DNA of 23,769 bases, from IMG/VR virus record IMGVR_UViG_3300009183_000367, positions 1 through 23,769 of that record, one strand, 5' to 3'. The position numbers were made by a program, and so were the translations under genes. Numbering within the stretch: the stretch's first letter is position 1; every line of letters starts with the position of its first letter. Shown here one piece after another: positions 1 to 20,945 of the stretch. The notes under the pieces were generated by a model. The model was not told the origin of the DNA, did no database searches, and saw only the letters and a program-made list of their open reading frames with translations. This DNA is from a virus.

Positions 1-621
1 CCAGATCGCGTCGGCGATACCAGACGCCTCGTCAAAGATCAACATCATTCCGTCGTGGTTGTGTACACCCGCGTAGGCGTCGGGATTTTCTTCTGACCAG
101 AGTTTGCCTTCCGCTGCCCAGTAGCGCGTCCCTTTCTTTAAGTCGCGCTCGACCAATTCGGTCAGCCACTGCGCCGGTACGATCTTAGTTGCGCTGATTT
201 CCCACCAGTGGCTGTTGATGATCATTGCTTGCCACTTGGTCAGTTCACCCCAGGTAACGGAGCGCAACTGCGCCTCGCTGTTGGCGCTCACGATGACCGT
301 CGAGCCGATCCGAGTAGACAGCATCCACAGGATCAGCCAGCTAACTAACGCCGACTTACCAATACCCCGCCCGCTGGACACCGCCTCGCGCAGCGTGTCC
401 ATGTTGACCTTACCTTCGTTGACTTTGATGTGCTTGGTAATGTCACGCAGTATCTCGCGCTGCCACTTGCGCGGGCCGCTGAACTTAGCTAACGGTGTGT
501 TGGGCTGACCCCAAGGAAACGCGAACAGTACAAACGCTTCAGGATCGTTCGCTATTGCGGGTGACCACAACCGCGTCATCAACGTCTGCTCTTCGGCTGA
601 TGTATAGATCGTTTTTTGCAT
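1..621 (-). CDS. terL: Terminase large subunit, N-terminal part (cut by window edge)
   Basis: This is the ATPase end of the phage DNA-packaging motor. Large terminases drive the genome into the prohead and cut it with a C-terminal nuclease, which lies beyond the window here. The visible 207 codons carry a Walker A motif (SGRGIGKS, about residues 83-90) and a Walker B motif (MMLIFDE, about 192-198), with AFPWG upstream as in many phage large terminases. The chosen start is the ATG at 621. An alternative ATG at 579 (MTRLWSP...) would also fit the family, and neither has a strong Shine-Dalgarno. The gene overlaps the 3' end of the small terminase by 83 bp in another frame, so the two are probably translationally coupled. 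Packaging identity is secure; the exact start is not. Confidence 0.93.
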   Translation of the reverse strand, partial: MQKTIYTSAEEQTLMTRLWSPAIANDPEAFVLFAFPWGQPNTPLAKFSGPRKWQREILRDITKHIKVNEGKVNMDTLREAVSSGRGIGKSALVSWLILWMLSTRIGSTVIVSANSEAQLRSVTWGELTKWQAMIINSHWWEISATKIVPAQWLTELVERDLKKGTRYWAAEGKLWSEENPDAYAGVHNHDGMMLIFDEASGIADAIW

Positions 622-1000
622 TCTCTAACACTCTGGTTTGCGCGGCTTCTAGCGCCTGTGTGATGCTGATCCGCTGATACACATCAACGCTGACTTCCTG
701 CTTGGCCGTCCACTCGTGCCGGTGACGCAGGATCTCTAACGCAGCTTTAGCGTCGCCATTTAACGCCGCGTTATTGAGAACTTGCGAGATCTCTCTTTCA
801 TTGTCAGCGCGGCCTTTTTGTTCAGCCATTTCCGCTAACGGATCTAGCTGACACAGTTGCCGATACTCAGCGGGCAGCATACCAGCAGCCAGCGCCAGCG
901 AGTCACCTTTCAGACCTAACTTCGCCGCGTCATAGATTGACTGAAGGCGAGCCTCTGTTGCCTGAACATTTCTGACAGTTAGTGGCAAAGATTTGAACAT
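539..1000 (-). CDS. terS: Putative terminase small subunit
   Basis: This 153-aa protein lies directly upstream of, and overlaps, the large terminase, the usual place for the DNA-recognition subunit. The N-terminal half is helical and resembles a helix-turn-helix (residues about 20-50, including LKGDSLALAAGMLPAEYRQL). The middle has a helical LNGDAKAALEILRHRHEW segment of the kind seen in small terminases. The ATG at 1000 has no clear Shine-Dalgarno, and the upstream DNA is an A/T-rich stretch followed by a repeat array. By analogy with known phages the protein would bind a cos or pac site nearby, and the repeats at 1093-1305 are an obvious candidate, though that is inference. The call rests on size, helical pattern and synteny. 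Confidence 0.75.
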   Translation of the reverse strand: MFKSLPLTVRNVQATEARLQSIYDAAKLGLKGDSLALAAGMLPAEYRQLCQLDPLAEMAEQKGRADNEREISQVLNNAALNGDAKAALEILRHRHEWTAKQEVSVDVYQRISITQALEAAQTRVLENAKNDLYISRRADVDDAVVVTRNSERS

Positions 1001-1092: not shown

Positions 1093-1305
1093 TGTACCCG
1101 GATGTTTGCCATGTCCACACGGGTCGATGCGGCCGTGCGTTCCCCGATGTGCACCCGATGTGCGCCCCCGATGTGTACCCACTTGTACCCACATGTGAGC
1201 GTCTTAAAAAACCGTTATAAAGTGGAGTGGTATGTACCCGCATGTGAGCGGCACACAATAATCGTTCTATTTTTTAGTGTGTGAGCGTGTACCCACTTGT
1301 TAGCG
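1093..1305 (+). repeat. Iteron-like direct repeats (TGTACCC / TGTGAGCG family)
   Basis: TGTACCC occurs at 1093, 1174, 1184, 1233 and 1288, with an inverted copy (GGGTACA) at 1427-1433. The best copies are 18-mers, TGTACCC[A/G]CATGTGAGCG, at 1184-1201 and 1233-1250, which differ at one base. The 18-mers at 1288-1305 (two changes from the first) and 1093-1110 (about four changes from the second) are more diverged. TGTGAGCG is present at 1194-1201, 1243-1250 and 1280-1287, and its inverse CGCTCACA at 1489-1496 and 1500-1507. Such arrays usually bind a replication initiator, a repressor or terminase. Confidence 0.75.
1143..1175 (+). repeat. Three closely spaced CCCGATGTG repeats
   Basis: CCCGATGTG occurs at 1143-1151, 1154-1162 and 1167-1175, with starts 11 and 13 bp apart, close to one helical turn. 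The last copy runs into the first TGTACCC of the 1174 cluster, so the two repeat families abut. Helical phasing suggests cooperative protein binding on one DNA face. No known site was recognised. Confidence 0.6.
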
Positions 1306-1462
1306 TTTTTTGACCGGGTAAAAAATTCGCGCTGGGAAAATGCGCGCGGATTTTACGGCCGTCGTCCGCCAAATTTCCCCTATATATAAAACTCAACTTT
1401 TTTCAAAAGTGATATAGCTAACATACGGGTACACCCCGCAAACCCGCGCCAATCCTTGCGAA

Positions 1463-1520
1463 AGTGTGGACACTCGCACGCCAAAAAACGCTCACAAAAC
1501 GCTCACAAAGTGTCCACACT
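1463..1520. repeat. Paired dyads flanking tandem 11-mers, operator/origin-like
   Basis: AGTGTGGACACT (1463-1474) and AGTGTCCACACT (1509-1520) are exact reverse complements. Each is itself an AGTGT-N2-ACACT dyad. Between them are two perfect tandem copies of ACGCTCACAAA (1488-1498 and 1499-1509), which contain the inverted form of the TGTGAGCG element found upstream. The cluster ends 21 bp before the -35 box at 1542, so a bound protein could control the rightward promoter. Confidence 0.75.
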
Positions 1521-1541: not shown

Positions 1542-1570
1542 TTGACACACACGGCCGAACGTGCGAATAT
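1542..1570 (+). promoter_or_regulatory. Predicted sigma70-type promoter for the small-gene operon
   Basis: A perfect TTGACA (1542-1547) is followed after 17 bp by GAATAT (1565-1570), a 3/6 match to the -10 consensus. Transcription would start near 1577, leaving a leader of about 48 nt before the first gene at 1625. The operator-like dyads immediately upstream suggest regulation. The -35 and spacing are convincing, the -10 is weak. Confidence 0.55.
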
Positions 1571-1624
1571 CTACCCGTGGCGCGCACGTCGCGCGTCATT
1601 CACTAACCTAAACGAGGGTAAACA

Positions 1625-1858
1625 ATGAAGATCAATCTTGAACATACCGACACCTTCGCGGGTGAGTCTAACTATTCATGGGTTCGCCGCGCGACGGTCG
1701 ACGCGCCCGACGCGCTATCGGACCGCGCTATCGTTCGCCGCGCGAAAGCGTGGGCTGGCCTCTCAGGTATCCGCTCACGCGTCGAAAAATTCGGCGACAC
1801 AATCGCCATCCATCCGGCCGGTATCTGCCACGTCGTTTTCGTCACGTTCGGAGAATGA
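1625..1858 (+). CDS. Small conserved-type hypothetical protein (77 aa)
   Basis: This is the first gene after the predicted promoter at 1542. The ATG at 1625 has a good Shine-Dalgarno (GAGGG, 1614-1618, six-base spacing). The product is a compact mixed protein with an arginine-rich helix (RAIVRRAKAWAGL, about residues 34-46) and a hydrophobic C-terminal strand (HVVFVTFGE). No enzymatic motif, signal peptide or membrane segment is present. It is adjacent to three further small genes of similar size, a typical layout for early phage genes that modify host functions. A longer overlapping reading frame beginning at 1638 is not preferred, because it lacks a ribosome site and its N-terminal part is the Ser/Arg-rich shadow of this gene. 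Function unknown. Confidence 0.75.
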   Translation: MKINLEHTDTFAGESNYSWVRRATVDAPDALSDRAIVRRAKAWAGLSGIRSRVEKFGDTIAIHPAGICHVVFVTFGE

Positions 1859-1862
1859 CGCC

Positions 1863-2102
1863 ATGCAAGCAATCGTCACAAAATGGATTGGCCCGACTAA
1901 TCATCGCGGCGACCGTATCAAGGCGACGGCGGCCGCTGGAAGTGTAACGGTCCCATATAAAGGCGGGGCAGATACGCTTGACGCGCATCGCGTCGCGGCC
2001 GTCGCATTCTGCGCGAAATTCGGATGGGATTTTGATCACGTGTCGGGCGACCTGCCCAATGGGTCGCTCGCATGGGTTCGCTTACCAAAAAAAGGGGTTT
2101 AA
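1863..2102 (+). CDS. Small hypothetical protein (79 aa)
   Basis: The ATG at 1863 lies 4 bp after the upstream stop, with GGAG (1850-1853) as ribosome site. The protein begins MQAIVTKWIGPTNHRGDRIK and has a TVPY strand and an alanine-rich helix (HRVAAVAFCAKFGWD). This N-terminal pattern recalls a small protein type I associate with phage and plasmid accessory regions, but I know no function for it. The same frame is open back to 1638; the shorter start is chosen because it follows a ribosome site and avoids the overlap with the 77-aa gene. There are no membrane segments or catalytic motifs. It is probably co-transcribed with its neighbours from 1542. Confidence 0.75.
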   Translation: MQAIVTKWIGPTNHRGDRIKATAAAGSVTVPYKGGADTLDAHRVAAVAFCAKFGWDFDHVSGDLPNGSLAWVRLPKKGV

Positions 2103-2104
2103 TA

Positions 2105-2386
2105 ATGGATTGGATACGCGTTAAAAACGACGTCAACGGCAACTCTCGTTGGGTATGCCATTGGTTGACGTTTAAACCGGCCGCCGATACTTATGAGACC
2201 GCGCTCGCGTTGGCGCGCAAGATTGGCGGGCGCAAGTATCACAATAAACAATACGGCGGTGGCATTGTTTTTCAATGCTACGGCCCCGACGATATCGGCC
2301 CGCATATCGCGCGGGTTCTGGCGCGCGCCAAAACGGCCGACGCTATCGCGCGTCGTGTTATTCCACTAGTTAAGGTGACCACGTGA
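2105..2386 (+). CDS. Small hypothetical protein (93 aa)
   Basis: The chosen ATG at 2105 follows an AGGGG ribosome site and starts three bases after the upstream stop (TAATAATGG junction); an in-frame ATG at 2072 would sit inside the previous gene. The product starts MDWIRVKNDVNGNSRWVCHW, continues with an alanine-rich helix and the basic GGRKYHNKQYGGG segment, and ends in a basic helical tail. The aromatic/basic composition might suit nucleic-acid binding, which is only a guess. It overlaps the next gene by four bases (GTGA). Confidence 0.72.
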   Translation: MDWIRVKNDVNGNSRWVCHWLTFKPAADTYETALALARKIGGRKYHNKQYGGGIVFQCYGPDDIGPHIARVLARAKTADAIARRVIPLVKVTT

Positions 2387-2571
2387 ACCACTACACAGCA
2401 AAATTCAAACGCTACACGGACGAAATGCTGAAAACAGCGTTAGCGGATTGTCACATTGCGCTTGGCGTCGGAGAGACGCTTTTTAGCCCCGCCTACATTG
2501 CAAAATTGTGGGCTGAAATTGACGCGATCCGCGACGTTCAACTTTCACGCAAACCAAAGGCCAAACAATGA
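2383..2571 (+). CDS. Small hypothetical protein (62 aa), GTG start
   Basis: This gene starts at GTG 2383, overlapping the previous stop as GTGA, with AAGGTGA just upstream as ribosome site. The 62-aa product is helical (DEMLKTALADCHIALGV, then AYIAKLWAEIDAIRDV) and ends with a lysine-rich tail (RKPKAKQ). No known domain was recognised. It could be a small DNA-binding or inhibitor protein of the early operon. It overlaps the next micro-ORF as ATGA. Confidence 0.7.
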   Translation: MNHYTAKFKRYTDEMLKTALADCHIALGVGETLFSPAYIAKLWAEIDAIRDVQLSRKPKAKQ

Positions 2572-2739: not shown

Positions 2740-4989
2740 TCATTGTGCCGGGTTATAGTCCGGCTCTACCATCCGACGCAGCGTAGACGCGCCCACGGCC
2801 GCAAGATCGGGCGCGCAGTACACGTGACGCTTAGACTCAAGCCCGCGCGCAGCGACGCGCCCACAATCGATCCAACCCGCCTCTTTAATCGCTTGCAATA
2901 ACGCTTGTTGGTACAGCTTCAAACCGGCCGGGGCCGATCGCGCTAGATCGTCAAGTACAGCTTGCAACGGCGCCGCGATCACGCCACGGGTGAACACACC
3001 CCTACGGGCGCGCATGAGTTCCAGAATGTAACTCTCCGCGCCCGATAGCGAATTTTCCGTCATCGTTTGTTTAAATTCCGTCATCGGCGGAGCCGCGCCC
3101 GGATTGAAGCGACTAACGTCGCGAGCGTGCAACCAAGCCGCCACGGCCGCGCGGCCGCCAGTGCGGAGCCACTGCCAAATCGCGGCGCCATCAGCGTCAC
3201 TCATGCGCCCAACGTGCGACCATATGCAGAACCAACGGCGATCCTGCGCCGATATAGATATAGGCAGTAGGTCATTCGAAAACGCCAGCACGAACCCACG
3301 GTTCGCCATCATATAGGGATGAAGTCCCTTTCGATTCACCGCGAGAACCTCAGGCGGGGCCGCGATGATAGGCTTTAGCTTATTGGCTAGGACGCGCCGA
3401 TCGGCCGCAAGCGCCTCTTTAAGCTCGTTTATAACCAGAATCTCAGACTCTAGTTGATAACCCCACTGGGACGTGAGCGACTCATTGTCAACCAAGCCCA
3501 GATTATGCTTATTGTCCCCGCAGACGGCCCATATAAACGGGTCGTACATCGTATCCTTGCCCGACCCCTCATCCGACGCATGAAGGATCGCGTGATTGAT
3601 CTTGACGCGCGGGTTCTGGACCTTATAAGCCATAACGTCCCATATATGGTCAAGCTCTGACTGTACCGGGACCAACTTGCGGCAATGATCGATCCACGCT
3701 TGTATAGGCCCCGCCATAGGCGTCGGCCGCGCGTCAACCCAACGATTGGCGTATGGCAGGTTATCCCGTACGGCCAAAACCGACTCGCCCGCAGCATAAG
3801 TTAGGCCCGCCAGGATATGGCCGCCCGCGGCCGTTCGGTTCTCGTCAAACCATAGGGACGGGTTGATAATGCGCGCCTTGCCGCCATTGTTGTGCAGCGA
3901 ATGGCACATGATCCCGCGATAGGTCGCGTCGAACGCCCGACGCGATATAAGCACACGGTCTACTAGGTCGAAATAGGCGTCATCCGACTGAACATAGGCA
4001 AACCGTTTGAACCAATCGGCCCGCTCTACCCGCGCCCGCTCGCGCGCCTCGACCTGGGCAATCACGGCCTTAGCGTCATCGGTAAACATCTCCGTAGGCG
4101 TCAGTTTGGATAGCGCGCCGCCCATGACCGACGCGAGCAACTCATCACGTAGGCCATAGGTACGCTTAGGCCCGCCTTGCTCTTCAACCCACGCTAGGAA
4201 CCGCGCGGAGTCCCATTCAATGCAATGCGAATGCAGACAGCAATAAGCCCGCGAAGCGGGCATATAACGGCCCTCTGGATTGCCGTCCGAGTGTTCTGCA
4301 CTGTTAGGGCAGATGACGCCCCACCAGCCCGCAGAGTTGCCTTTCTGTGTGACTTCTTTACGCTCGACAAGCCACGCCAGCACATCATCCGACCCGTCAT
4401 CCTTTAGGACACCGGGACGGAATGTCGTGGTCTCGACCGCGCCGGGAACGACCGATAGAGCGCCGCAGATCTCTTCAAGACTAAACTCGCGCGACGGGTT
4501 GAACTCGACCAAACGCGCAGCAAAACGGCCGCGTCCGGGCTTTAGGTTGATCGAGCCGGGAATGCGAATATTGCGGACCGGATTGATCGCGCCGGGGTCC
4601 GTATAGCCCGCAGCGGCGATGGCCTTGATAGCGGCGCTATAGACGGATTTGTGGGGCTGATCGTCTAGCCGGAAAACGTAACACCATTGAAAGTTATCCT
4701 TCGACGTTTCAATGATCCACGTAGGTCTGATCGTAGGCGTCTTAGATTTAGTCCCGACGTCATCTAACACCAGACACCACACGTTCTCGCAGAACGCAGC
4801 ACCCGCCGACACTCTTTGACCGTCGAACCGCGACTCAATGAACGAGCCGATGTTGACGTACCAAGCGCCTTCACCGCGCGGCTTGCGAAACGCAGGATAG
4901 GCGTAACCGCCCTCACGCTCAACTTGTTTAGTGAATAAAACTACTTCACCCTCTGGCGCGAGGGCTATGATATGATCCACCAGTTCCAT
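2740..4989 (-). CDS. Primase-polymerase / SF3 helicase replication protein
   Basis: This 749-aa protein combines priming and unwinding for phage DNA replication. The N-terminal AEP/RepB-type primase part has LDDVGTK (about residues 75-81), a probable metal-binding acidic motif, and RNIRIPGSINLK (139-150), typical of this primase group. A Cys/His cluster (C227, H233, C250, H253, H255, C256) probably binds zinc. The C-terminal half is a superfamily 3-type helicase: Walker A in DEGSGKDT (473-480), Walker B-like ILVINE (517-522), a motif C asparagine in LAFSND (568-573) and a possible arginine finger DRRW (583-586). The ATG at 4989 has AGGAG upstream. It is the last gene of the leftward replication operon, separated from polA by a hairpin. 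CGGCCG is frequent in this gene and I saw none in polA. Confidence 0.88.
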   Translation of the reverse strand: MELVDHIIALAPEGEVVLFTKQVEREGGYAYPAFRKPRGEGAWYVNIGSFIESRFDGQRVSAGAAFCENVWCLVLDDVGTKSKTPTIRPTWIIETSKDNFQWCYVFRLDDQPHKSVYSAAIKAIAAAGYTDPGAINPVRNIRIPGSINLKPGRGRFAARLVEFNPSREFSLEEICGALSVVPGAVETTTFRPGVLKDDGSDDVLAWLVERKEVTQKGNSAGWWGVICPNSAEHSDGNPEGRYMPASRAYCCLHSHCIEWDSARFLAWVEEQGGPKRTYGLRDELLASVMGGALSKLTPTEMFTDDAKAVIAQVEARERARVERADWFKRFAYVQSDDAYFDLVDRVLISRRAFDATYRGIMCHSLHNNGGKARIINPSLWFDENRTAAGGHILAGLTYAAGESVLAVRDNLPYANRWVDARPTPMAGPIQAWIDHCRKLVPVQSELDHIWDVMAYKVQNPRVKINHAILHASDEGSGKDTMYDPFIWAVCGDNKHNLGLVDNESLTSQWGYQLESEILVINELKEALAADRRVLANKLKPIIAAPPEVLAVNRKGLHPYMMANRGFVLAFSNDLLPISISAQDRRWFCIWSHVGRMSDADGAAIWQWLRTGGRAAVAAWLHARDVSRFNPGAAPPMTEFKQTMTENSLSGAESYILELMRARRGVFTRGVIAAPLQAVLDDLARSAPAGLKLYQQALLQAIKEAGWIDCGRVAARGLESKRHVYCAPDLAAVGASTLRRMVEPDYNPAQ

Positions 4990-14614: not shown

Positions 14615-16932
14615 GGAGCCAATTGGTTTTGGTTTTGCAAACTACGCAGAATAATTTTTTCTTCTGCCGTAAGAGTTGCCGCCGCCCCTCGCTTCAATTT
14701 TTCTATAGCAGAATCGAGGGTGGTTTGTTGAGCAGAAACAACACTTGATCCAGACTGCGGCGTAATATTTCGCAACCCGGACGGGGGCGTAAATGATTCT
14801 GAAGAACCATAATTTTGATTACGACCTCTTTTAACTAAAAAATTTGGTATTTTGTCAGCGTAAAAAAATTCTATTTCTTGAATTTCTTTTTTTATTTCGT
14901 TTTGTTTTGATCTGTTTTTTGACCCTTTCAGATTTTTAAGTTCTTCTTTTAATTGTTCGACGTACTTCAAATCCCGCATCATTACGTTTTCTTGTAGCGG
15001 GGTAAAAGTTTCAGGACCTTTAACCTGCTGCCCCACGGGTTGTAGTTTACCCGTAAACGGATCAAGTTCGTAACTAACACCCGCCCCCGCCGATTGGCGC
15101 GGGCTTCGTTGTGCGGCAGCAGCGGCGGCTTCATCAGCGGCCTTATCGCGGGCGTAATTATAAATACGCTCTTGGACGGGACCTTCCGCTCCGGGCATTG
15201 GCAATTCTCGCGGTGCAGCAAATTGCATATCAGGGCCTAAACTACCTGTGCGCCGTAACCCAGCTTCTTGTTGCGCTCTTTGAACGGCTTCATACGCAGA
15301 ACGCGGCGCTGGCGGCGGCTCTTGAAATATAAAGTTGGGCGTGTACTCGGGCGGCAGTACAGCGTTTTCAGGATTGAAAATCGCCAAGTTAGACGACCCC
15401 GGCTCGACTGGGCGCAACATATTAGCTGGCGAACGGTAATCGCGCGGGATGGCGTTGGCGGCTTGATACGCGGGCGACGACATACGTTTAGCCATCAAAG
15501 CGTTGGCTACCGCACCGCTAGTTGTCCCAACGACCGCGCCAAGCGGCCCCATACCAAACGCGCTTCCGATGCCATAACCAAGTGTACCGCCCGTACCACC
15601 TCGCAATATTGTAGGAATGGCAGTAGTCCAACTTCCCGGTTTAACTTCAGATACACCGGGAAAATTAGCGGCAACAGTAGCAATATCCGCTGCTGTTCCC
15701 GTAAGCGGTTTTCCTTCCGTAATCTTGGCAAATTTAACAGGATCTAGGTGACCAGTTCGGGTGTCGGTAGCTCGTTGGTAGTCAAAAATTTTGGCCGATA
15801 ACGTCCGAGCGTTCTGAAACGCGCGCGCTTGCGTCCCCGTTAAATATAGCGACGCAGCGGCTTCAAGCTGATCGGCAAGTGCCATGCTTGCATCTGCAAC
15901 CGCCATAGATTCTGGCGATGGTGCGGTCATACCTTTTTTCTCAGCGCGGTAAATTCTTTGCGCTGATTGGCGAAAATCTTGTATGTTTTTTAAAATATCT
16001 TGCCCAGACATACCAGCACTAAGTCGCGCAATAGTTTCGTCAGCAAGTTTAGAAACCGCCGCTTGACTTGCTTCGCCGCCAATCAAAGACTCAGTTTTTA
16101 ATGCATTGATTTTATTGACTATATCTTGGTCAGCCGTGACGCGCCCAAGTTTACGAACTGTGTCGTATGGCTCAACTATCAACGGGTTTTTTAATGCCTC
16201 GCCAAACGCTTGATCGTTAAGCGTGGTGTTGGGCGACAGGCCCATATCTTCTTTGGCTTTTCTGGTCCATTGCGGCTCGTTTGTACGAGCCATTTTTGCT
16301 TCTGGATTTCCAGCTATAGCTCCAACAATTCTGTTACCTACGGTTGGATTGGTCACTGCTGGATTGACCGCAACGCCCAGACGATTTGCAGCATTTGCCG
16401 CGTCAATCAAGTTAGCGTTTTCGTAGCTCCGAGTGACAAGTTGCTGTTGACGTTGCGCGCTTCGTTCTGAAAACGGAATTTGTAGGGCTTTTATAGCTGG
16501 AGCCGCGCGAACGGCAAGAGCGTTAGCTCCTTGTGCAATCTGTCCTGCTTGACCAACAACTGGTATAAATGGAGGAAGGTTAGGCATTAAATTGCCAACC
16601 GATTGAATGTTGGCTTGTGCCGCAGGACTGATGGGGACATTGCCGCCAAGTTCCATAATCTGACGAAGGGTTTGCTCCTTAGGAGTACCCATCAGCATTT
16701 CTTTGCCCAAAGCAATTGGCGCTCCAACTACTCCAGTTAGGCCGCCATAGATCATTCTTGCTGCCGTTTCCGGCACTGCGCCTACTCTTTTAAAGAAAGA
16801 TGGTTCTTGAGTAAGTGCTGGCTGCTCTACTGCGCCCGGAATGTCTGCTGGTGTTGCGCTCGGTAAAGGCGCGACAAACTGAGCAAAAGGATTAGATTGC
16901 TTAACAAATTGGGCAAACGGATTTTCAGCCAT
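14611..16932 (-). CDS. Ejection / internal virion protein (gp16-like position)
   Basis: This 773-aa protein is probably ejected with the DNA into the host. It is the third of three large proteins after the cupin gene, the position of P22 gp16. The N-terminus carries two copies of NPFAQFV (residues 4-10 and 14-20), a short repeat type seen in phage virion and ejection proteins. Hydrophobic, glycine-rich stretches (MIYGGLTGVVGAPIALG, about 60-76; GGTGGTLGYGIGSAFG, about 447-462) could insert into membranes. Residues about 150-430 are helical and charged, and about 500-620 are Pro/Ala-rich. It abuts the upstream gene directly (TAAATG). I assign it by context and composition; no enzymatic motif was found. 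Confidence 0.72.
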   Translation of the reverse strand: MAENPFAQFVKQSNPFAQFVAPLPSATPADIPGAVEQPALTQEPSFFKRVGAVPETAARMIYGGLTGVVGAPIALGKEMLMGTPKEQTLRQIMELGGNVPISPAAQANIQSVGNLMPNLPPFIPVVGQAGQIAQGANALAVRAAPAIKALQIPFSERSAQRQQQLVTRSYENANLIDAANAANRLGVAVNPAVTNPTVGNRIVGAIAGNPEAKMARTNEPQWTRKAKEDMGLSPNTTLNDQAFGEALKNPLIVEPYDTVRKLGRVTADQDIVNKINALKTESLIGGEASQAAVSKLADETIARLSAGMSGQDILKNIQDFRQSAQRIYRAEKKGMTAPSPESMAVADASMALADQLEAAASLYLTGTQARAFQNARTLSAKIFDYQRATDTRTGHLDPVKFAKITEGKPLTGTAADIATVAANFPGVSEVKPGSWTTAIPTILRGGTGGTLGYGIGSAFGMGPLGAVVGTTSGAVANALMAKRMSSPAYQAANAIPRDYRSPANMLRPVEPGSSNLAIFNPENAVLPPEYTPNFIFQEPPPAPRSAYEAVQRAQQEAGLRRTGSLGPDMQFAAPRELPMPGAEGPVQERIYNYARDKAADEAAAAAAQRSPRQSAGAGVSYELDPFTGKLQPVGQQVKGPETFTPLQENVMMRDLKYVEQLKEELKNLKGSKNRSKQNEIKKEIQEIEFFYADKIPNFLVKRGRNQNYGSSESFTPPSGLRNITPQSGSSVVSAQQTTLDSAIEKLKRGAAATLTAEEKIILRSLQNQNQLAP

Positions 16933-20165: not shown

Positions 20166-20497
20166 GTCACTTCCCGCCCAGAAACCCGGATATTGATCGC
20201 GCTGGCCGTACCTGCAATTGTACTGATAAAGTCGCCAACCCCTAGAACTTGCCCAACCAACTCTGGGAACGTGTACACCTCAGACGCGGCGAGCGTCTTG
20301 GTCTTGGTGATCAAGTTGGTGTTTCCGGCAGAACCCGCCACTGTGACCAAGTTGACGGAAATTGTAGCAGCAGAGGCGCTGATGTTGGTCGCTGTAAACT
20401 TGTCAATAAGGGCAGTCACACCGTTGGCGGTGTACTGGGTTGTTTGCGTGTTTTCGGCAAACTTTGCCGGTACTAGGACTTTTACTGTGACGGCCAT
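20162..20497 (-). CDS. Beta-rich hypothetical virion protein (111 aa)
   Basis: ATG 20497 has a GAGG site and the gene overlaps the cupin gene by ATGA. The product is rich in Thr/Ala/Val (NISASAATISVNLVTVAGSA, then LITKTKTLAASEVYTF) and reads as a small beta-sandwich, like many phage decoration or tail-associated proteins. No motif identifies it. I infer a virion role from its neighbours and composition. Confidence 0.68.
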   Translation of the reverse strand: MAVTVKVLVPAKFAENTQTTQYTANGVTALIDKFTATNISASAATISVNLVTVAGSAGNTNLITKTKTLAASEVYTFPELVGQVLGVGDFISTIAGTASAINIRVSGREVT

Positions 20498-20507
20498 GAT
20501 AATTTCC

Positions 20508-20945
20508 TCAAACTATGCTGGTGATTATACCGTTTACCACAGTGACGATTTTTAAGTCTACAGTGGTAAAAAATCCTGTTGCGCCAATAATTTCACTGCG
20601 AGGTTCTAATTGCAACCCGTCAATTTGCTTTTGCTGCTCGGCAATCTGCGCCAGCAATCCAGAAGACAAATCAGCAATACCCGCATCATCAATCTGTTTT
20701 TGCAAATTGGCGCTTGGGTCTGGCGCAACAGGCTGTATGCCCACATCTTGCGTCAACTTTTGCAAAGCAGCATCGTACGAAGCAATCAGCGAATCAGCAG
20801 TCGGGCCAATACTAGGGTTGTCAATGACGGTTGTGGCAACATTGTTCAGAGACAGAAAGAACAAATACCAAGCGCGATCAATAAACCCCGTGCGCGGATC
20901 GACCAAAGGCACCCGTGGTGGGGTGATCGGCGTCACATTAGGCAT
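20508..20945 (-). CDS. Putative tail-associated protein, needle position (145 aa)
   Basis: I chose ATG 20945 (MPNVTPITPPRVPLVDPRTG) because its N-terminus is one I know from several phage virion proteins. A GTG at 20954 would add three residues (MAQ) and lacks a ribosome site. The N-terminal region up to YLFFLSL may anchor the protein to the tail. The centre is a helical coiled-coil-like stretch (QKQIDDAGIADLSSGLLAQI), and the C-terminal GFFTTVDLKIVTVVNGIITS is a beta segment often seen at phage protein ends. It follows gp10-like, the place of the P22 needle gp26, but is shorter, so I call the needle role tentative. It overlaps the gp10-like gene end by 8 bp. Confidence 0.68.
   Translation of the reverse strand: MPNVTPITPPRVPLVDPRTGFIDRAWYLFFLSLNNVATTVIDNPSIGPTADSLIASYDAALQKLTQDVGIQPVAPDPSANLQKQIDDAGIADLSSGLLAQIAEQQKQIDGLQLEPRSEIIGATGFFTTVDLKIVTVVNGIITSIV

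Follow-up and report, generated by a model that had tools for sequence, protein, structure and literature searches.

Repeats beside terminase genes are known from the cosB and R sites of phage lambda, and the alpha protein of phage P4, which reads short repeats (ori/crr), combines a primase and a helicase with a winged-helix domain for origin binding at its C-terminal end. In SaPI Rep and SCCmec Cch2 it is the C-terminal domain that binds the iterons, and the origin lies downstream of the initiator gene; for SaPI Rep, binding by two hexamers has been reported (PMC7581432). In PLE satellites, ori and the DNA-binding domain of RepA co-vary and swap together, replication occurs only with a matched pair, and the phage nuclease Odn attacks one PLE origin type (PMC8263062). 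The NrS-1 polymerase (PDB 6k9c) reads an 8-nt sequence of which its genome has two copies; the portion of the source drawn on here describes no iteron array (PMC7102993).

We analysed a 23,769-nucleotide stretch of viral DNA (the window), in which an array of short repeats lies between a small terminase gene and a set of early genes. From sequence comparison we infer, for binding and initiation as well, that positions 1093-1519 are very likely an iteron replication origin read by the phage's own self-loading primase-helicase. The features on which the comparison turns are as follows.

539-1000, minus strand: terS, small terminase subunit, assigned from its position before terL; no co-variation with the repeats.
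1031-1090, no strand given: element that stays conserved whatever the repeat type (TTTGCGGGGGGTGCGT..GTGACC..GGCCCTACCCGG), a candidate cos/pac site on the basis of conservation.
1093-1109, plus strand: outlying iteron TGTACCCGGATGTTTGC, a diverged 18-mer copy.
1142-1180, plus strand: three CCCGATGTG copies forming a degenerate ladder in steps of 11 and 13 bp (repeat family D5).
1174-1201, plus strand: iteron cluster TGTACCC-TGTACCC-TGTGAGCG in 10-bp steps (word scan).
1233-1250, plus strand: iteron pair TGTACCC-N3-TGTGAGCG (word scan).
1280-1304, plus strand: iteron cluster TGTGAGC-TGTACCC-TGTTAGC (word scan).
1378-1416, no strand given: AT-rich element with TATATATA, the presumed unwinding element between opposed iteron arms (TATATATA-like string in 29/33 relatives; word orientation switches there).
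1417-1433, minus strand: inverted iteron pair TGTACCC-N3-TGTTAGC (pattern search, word scan).
1464-1519, minus strand: right arm, two TGTGAGC words (1490-1496, 1501-1507) with GTGTGGACAC (1464-1473) on one side and GTGTCCACAC (1510-1519) on the other.
1542-1571, plus strand: promoter-like TTGACA, then AATATC 18 bp on, directly before the early genes (TTGACA in 32/33 relatives; below the promoter-scan threshold).
1625-2571, plus strand: early genes e1-e4, a mosaic reassorting between repeat types.
2740-4989, minus strand: primase-helicase gene, 749 residues.
2743-4059, minus strand: residues 311-749, comprising the AAA+ helicase, DUF5906 and the C-terminal part, exchanged together with the repeat words.
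2809-3042, minus strand: predicted C-terminal winged helix, residues ~650-727, the presumed iteron-binding domain (structure prediction).
4060-4989, minus strand: primase half, residues 1-310, near-invariant across repeat types.

The arrangement resembles that of SaPI Rep and Cch2. Multiple short repeats are clustered in a single noncoding region and flank an AT-rich element, and near them lies the gene for an AAA+ helicase with a predicted C-terminal DNA-binding domain, the origin being downstream of the gene with small genes between. SaPI Rep is a self-loading AAA+ helicase that recognises the short iterons of a downstream origin by its C-terminal domain, and the present enzyme is proposed to act likewise. 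Unlike SaPI Rep, the present system belongs to a phage with its own polymerase, has a different, AEP-like primase fused to the helicase, carries 7-bp words in two opposed arms, and has several small genes between gene and origin. As with PLE RepA and ori, the origin and the DNA-binding part of the initiator swap as a module while the other domain and the backbone are conserved; PLEs, however, are satellites with a RepA_N initiator, an N-terminal binding domain, ~30-bp iterons and two specificity groups, whereas here a phage group carries many word types and it is the C-terminal helicase half that is exchanged, in reverse domain order. What sets the present system apart from SaPI Rep and PLE is a phage replicon with a different fused primase, a swap order reversed from that of PLE RepA, and more specificities. 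The primase domain of P4 alpha is unrelated to the one found here, and homology to its binding domain was not found in Pfam and PDB scans; unlike lambda cosB, the repeats do not follow TerS. NrS-1 polymerase (PDB 6k9c, PMC7102993) likewise joins a primase-polymerase to a ring-forming C-terminal region, and is the best structural match of the helicase half.

Across the window, the 7-bp words TGTACCC, TGTGAGC and TGTTAGC were found 13 times within 1093-1507 and only twice elsewhere, in a scan that also covered TGTGCCC. Nine words point rightward at 1093-1304 and four leftward at 1417-1507, with the AT-rich TATATATA stretch between the two arms, and successive words are 8-11 bp apart, approximately one helical turn (1174, 1184, 1194; 1233, 1243; 1288, 1298; 1417, 1427). 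None of 1000 dinucleotide shuffles of 1093-1305 matched the observed count of repeated 7-, 8- or 10-mers, and the observed 12-mer repeat count was reached in 1/1000. The intergenic region that houses these repeats (1001-1624) separates terS, on the minus strand, from the small rightward early genes. Much of the original prediction was borne out: the 18-mers TGTACCCACATGTGAGCG (1184-1201) and TGTACCCGCATGTGAGCG (1233-1250) differ at a single base, diverged copies begin at 1093 and 1288, the three CCCGATGTG repeats are spaced 11 and 13 bp apart, near the helical repeat, and, with terS starting at 1000 on the minus strand, the array from 1093 to 1305 lies 93-305 bp upstream of it, where 90-300 bp had been proposed. 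The repeats are real within the proposed packing of about 210 bp (1093-1305), but that span was too short. The array continues to 1507 on the minus strand, with further copies at 1417-1433 (pattern search), 1490-1496 and 1501-1507, and its symmetry becomes visible once the right half of opposite orientation (1417-1507) is included. Promoter and terminator scanning returned no call above threshold, and GC skew on 12 long contigs gave no origin signal, the pattern being dominated by gene orientation.

Relatives were collected through a TerS search of viral contigs, all metagenomic assemblies, which yielded 80 loci; layout was compared across 33 genomes comprising the window and relatives, with repeat types labelled by the author from word counts. 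The opposed-arm layout recurs in the 33 genomes, and in those with an exact TATATATA string the distances from that element are similar. Around it, type A words number 83 plus and 6 minus on the left and 36 minus and 0 plus on the right, and type B words 113 plus and 0 minus on the left and 37 minus and 1 plus on the right, with steps of mostly 8-11 bp in both types. The words themselves vary. Many loci with TerS 96-100% identical to the window's have none of its words and carry TGTCAGC, TGTAGGC or TGTTAGC (followed by AAT) at similar positions under the same orientation rule (for instance L006, TerS 100% identical, 0 of the window's words), while remoter relatives have TGTTGGC, TGTGGAC, TGGGTCA, TGGGGTA or TTAGGCAA at the same place. 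Within type A, TGTGCCC stands in for TGTACCC in some phages. An 18-mer scan of 2.9 million viral contigs found arrays confined to this phage group, bar one unrelated coding-like tandem repeat (L087), other single matches looking like chance. The check suggested originally, a search of related phage genomes for the 18-mer consensus upstream of terS, finds the array within the group, with the window's words absent from many phages that have 96-100% identical TerS. Loss of the repeats in close relatives, which had been put forward as grounds for rejection, is a misleading test, since words are swapped for others at matching positions and not lost.

Two local irregularities were also seen. In L026 (word counts are the same in L039), a type A origin is accompanied by three type B words (TGTAGGCAATGTAGGCAATGTTAGCAAT) beside terS, within the first ~50 bp upstream of it, probably a recombination scar. 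Several loci of a second clade (L072, L081, L083 and others) have perfect tandem arrays (GCCTGCCC, CCGCCAGC, CCGTCAG units) lying ~120-240 bp from terS on its upstream side, in the gap that separates the conserved element from the origin words, and these arrays differ among close relatives.

Word type is tightly co-segregated with the C-terminal half of the primase-helicase. In a gene-by-gene comparison, terL, terS, polA, DUF2815, exonuclease, VRR nuclease and SNF2 genes showed much the same similarity in type B as in type A, but identity in the primase-helicase dropped to 76-80% in type B, and all-against-all ORF clustering placed within-type similarity clearly above between-type similarity in two genes, the primase-helicase and an optional clamp-like early gene. 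Between types, the primase-helicase is mostly 90-100% identical up to a sharp break near residue 310 and ~65% identical after it. On gene trees, the A/B word label switches just once with the C half, as against 7 times with TerS, 5 with TerL, 4 with polA and 6 with the primase N half, and word type agrees with C-half type at 33/33 loci of the window's clade. Finer differences are less regular: TGTGCCC replaces TGTACCC without any fixed C-half residue, so that some tolerance of words is likely, and TGTGGAC and TGTTGGC phages have 13 fixed C-half differences, three of which (707, 713, 718) fall at the predicted wing, where a tie to the word change is suggestive only.

The clamp-like protein (199-213 aa) weakly matches the DNA polymerase III beta central domain; examples of its gene are L126 (G001), 15222-15827, and L133 (G004), 20187-20792, and their relatives. 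This gene is type-specific in the window's clade (67% between types) and common to both types in the second, and is missing from the window and about half of the 33 genomes; for this absence and its crossing of types it was rejected as the cognate factor. Another early protein, e3 (2105-2386 in the window), matches Pfam Phage_TreK (E 8e-18), a terminal-repeat-encoded protein of staphylococcal phages, far from its usual phages.

Residues 472-585 of the primase-helicase match DUF5906 in Pfam, and its N-terminal part weakly matches the RepB primase family. By sequence, the helicase half has a single, weak match in the PDB, the C-terminal region of NrS-1 polymerase (E 0.011), which is also the best result of the fold search (E 2e-8, ~14% identity), followed lower down by SaPI PriRep1 and the SaPI5 primase-helicase (both weak) and by D5/E5 helicases. 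No match to P4 alpha appeared in the Pfam and PDB scans. The full-length AlphaFold model gives the helicase core low confidence, while the better C-terminal model, of the last 150 residues, predicts a winged helix at ~650-727 with pLDDT mostly about 90; used alone in Foldseek, this domain returned weak matches (best E 0.036) to winged-helix and replication-terminator proteins. Relatives of the primase-helicase occur in several betaproteobacterial MAGs (Rhodoferax, Burkholderiaceae) and in others, binning being weak evidence of host.

A second clade, with TerS ~69% identical to the window's, displays the same association. TGGGGTA origins go with one C-half type at 24/24 loci and TGGGTCA origins with the other at 15/16, or 39/40 concordant loci in all, with enzyme type called from the best tblastn match, even though identity is mostly 97-100% for TerS and mostly 95-98% for the primase N half. 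The swap junction lies in the same inter-domain linker as in the window's clade, and the intragenic swap arose independently here. Phylogenetically independent pairs were concordant in 5/5 cases in the first clade (types A and C pooled against B) and in three in the second, with none opposed and one uninformative; pooled by hand, these give 8 vs 0 (sign test, p = 0.008), significance being out of reach for either clade alone. Origin and putative initiator form matched, co-varying pairs in both sets except at one locus, L072 (contig IMGVR_UViG_3300044911_001532), whose origin words do not fit its helicase type. It carries TGGGTCA words and a C-half ~98% identical to that of TGGGGTA phages, with an identical winged helix. 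It could represent a real recombinant with mismatched parts or a chimera assembled from strains whose TerS is identical, or else the enzyme may tolerate either word; as the contigs are metagenomic assemblies, single mismatches are untrustworthy either way.

Three readings, a terminase-binding site, an initiator array and a repressor array, had been offered originally, with a leaning to the first; it is the initiator that is supported. A terminase-binding (cosB-like or pac) site read by TerS would suit repeats 93-305 bp upstream of terS, but TerS proteins up to 100% identical accompany entirely different words, which makes TerS binding very unlikely, and the 96-100% identity of TerS across unrelated words contradicts the original leaning. 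Repeats and TerS do not co-vary, the A/B label changing 7 times on the TerS tree and 5 on that of TerL, and contig ends show no visible clustering at the array in the table of 80 TerS loci. Between the repeats and terS sits the separate element at 1031-1090, whose identity is equal within and between types (0.81-0.93 overall, 0.81-0.91 between types), most of the array being at or below 0.4 between types. This element, and not the array, adjoins terS and travels with TerS, and from its conservation would be the better candidate for a packaging (cos/pac) site.

That the repeats are operators for an early repressor or activator of divergent terS and early transcripts is, in our view, highly improbable. 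They do fill the divergent intergenic region, and the right arm abuts the TTGACA motif; yet the early genes reassort, none of them occurring in every type or tracking the words throughout, hardly any of the words occur outside the array, the protein that co-segregates with them is the primase-helicase, and opposed arms around an AT-rich centre better suit an origin. Autoregulation by the initiator is possible. Co-segregation might instead reflect physical linkage alone, a ~3-kb block from helicase C-half to origin recombining as a unit without the helicase reading the repeats. With only ~1.2 kb between origin and C-half, linkage should cause a degree of co-transfer, and both the type-specific clamp-like gene inside the block in the first clade and the L072 mismatch fit such an account. 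However, early genes between origin and enzyme cross types at up to 96% amino-acid identity, which makes linkage alone a poor explanation, and one that we regard as quite unlikely; in the second clade the clamp crosses types as well, both independent clades have the junction at the same inter-domain linker, and only the helicase/DNA-binding half is divergent. We read the near-absence of mismatched pairs, despite crossovers within the block, as functional coupling, not as proof of binding.

Under the origin model, short iterons in two opposed arms would flank an AT-rich unwinding element, and the primase-helicase (2740-4989, minus strand) would act as initiator. Its C-terminal half, probably through the winged helix at ~650-727, would bind iterons about one helical turn apart; the enzyme would then load helicase rings on both arms, melt the TATATATA element and prime synthesis. 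We infer binding, ring loading, melting and origin activity from the array, its layout and the co-segregation described above. Origin and helicase half together behave as a specificity module that can be exchanged while the rest of the backbone stays nearly constant.

On a near-constant genome, these phages may maintain many coexisting origin types, at least seven word sets, each exchanged jointly with its helicase half across one fixed point inside the gene. Some samples contain more than one type (type B L009 with type A L012, L018, L022 and L029 in 3300027971; L183 with L193 in 3300035665; L188 with L196 in 3300043786), which makes selection on origin identity plausible. Tentatively, this diversity could be preserved through selection against phages that share an origin type, for example where a common origin is exploited or attacked by satellites, nucleases or co-infecting phages, as in the arms race of Odn and PLE. 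If the origin model is true, these phages would provide a natural many-allele data set on the co-evolution of initiator DNA recognition and origin, including near-isogenic matched genomes in which origin words and their reader change together and which are ready swap partners. Words co-varying with the helicase C-half would also offer a general bioinformatic route to phage origins, and selection on origin identity could be tested in this group of wild phages.
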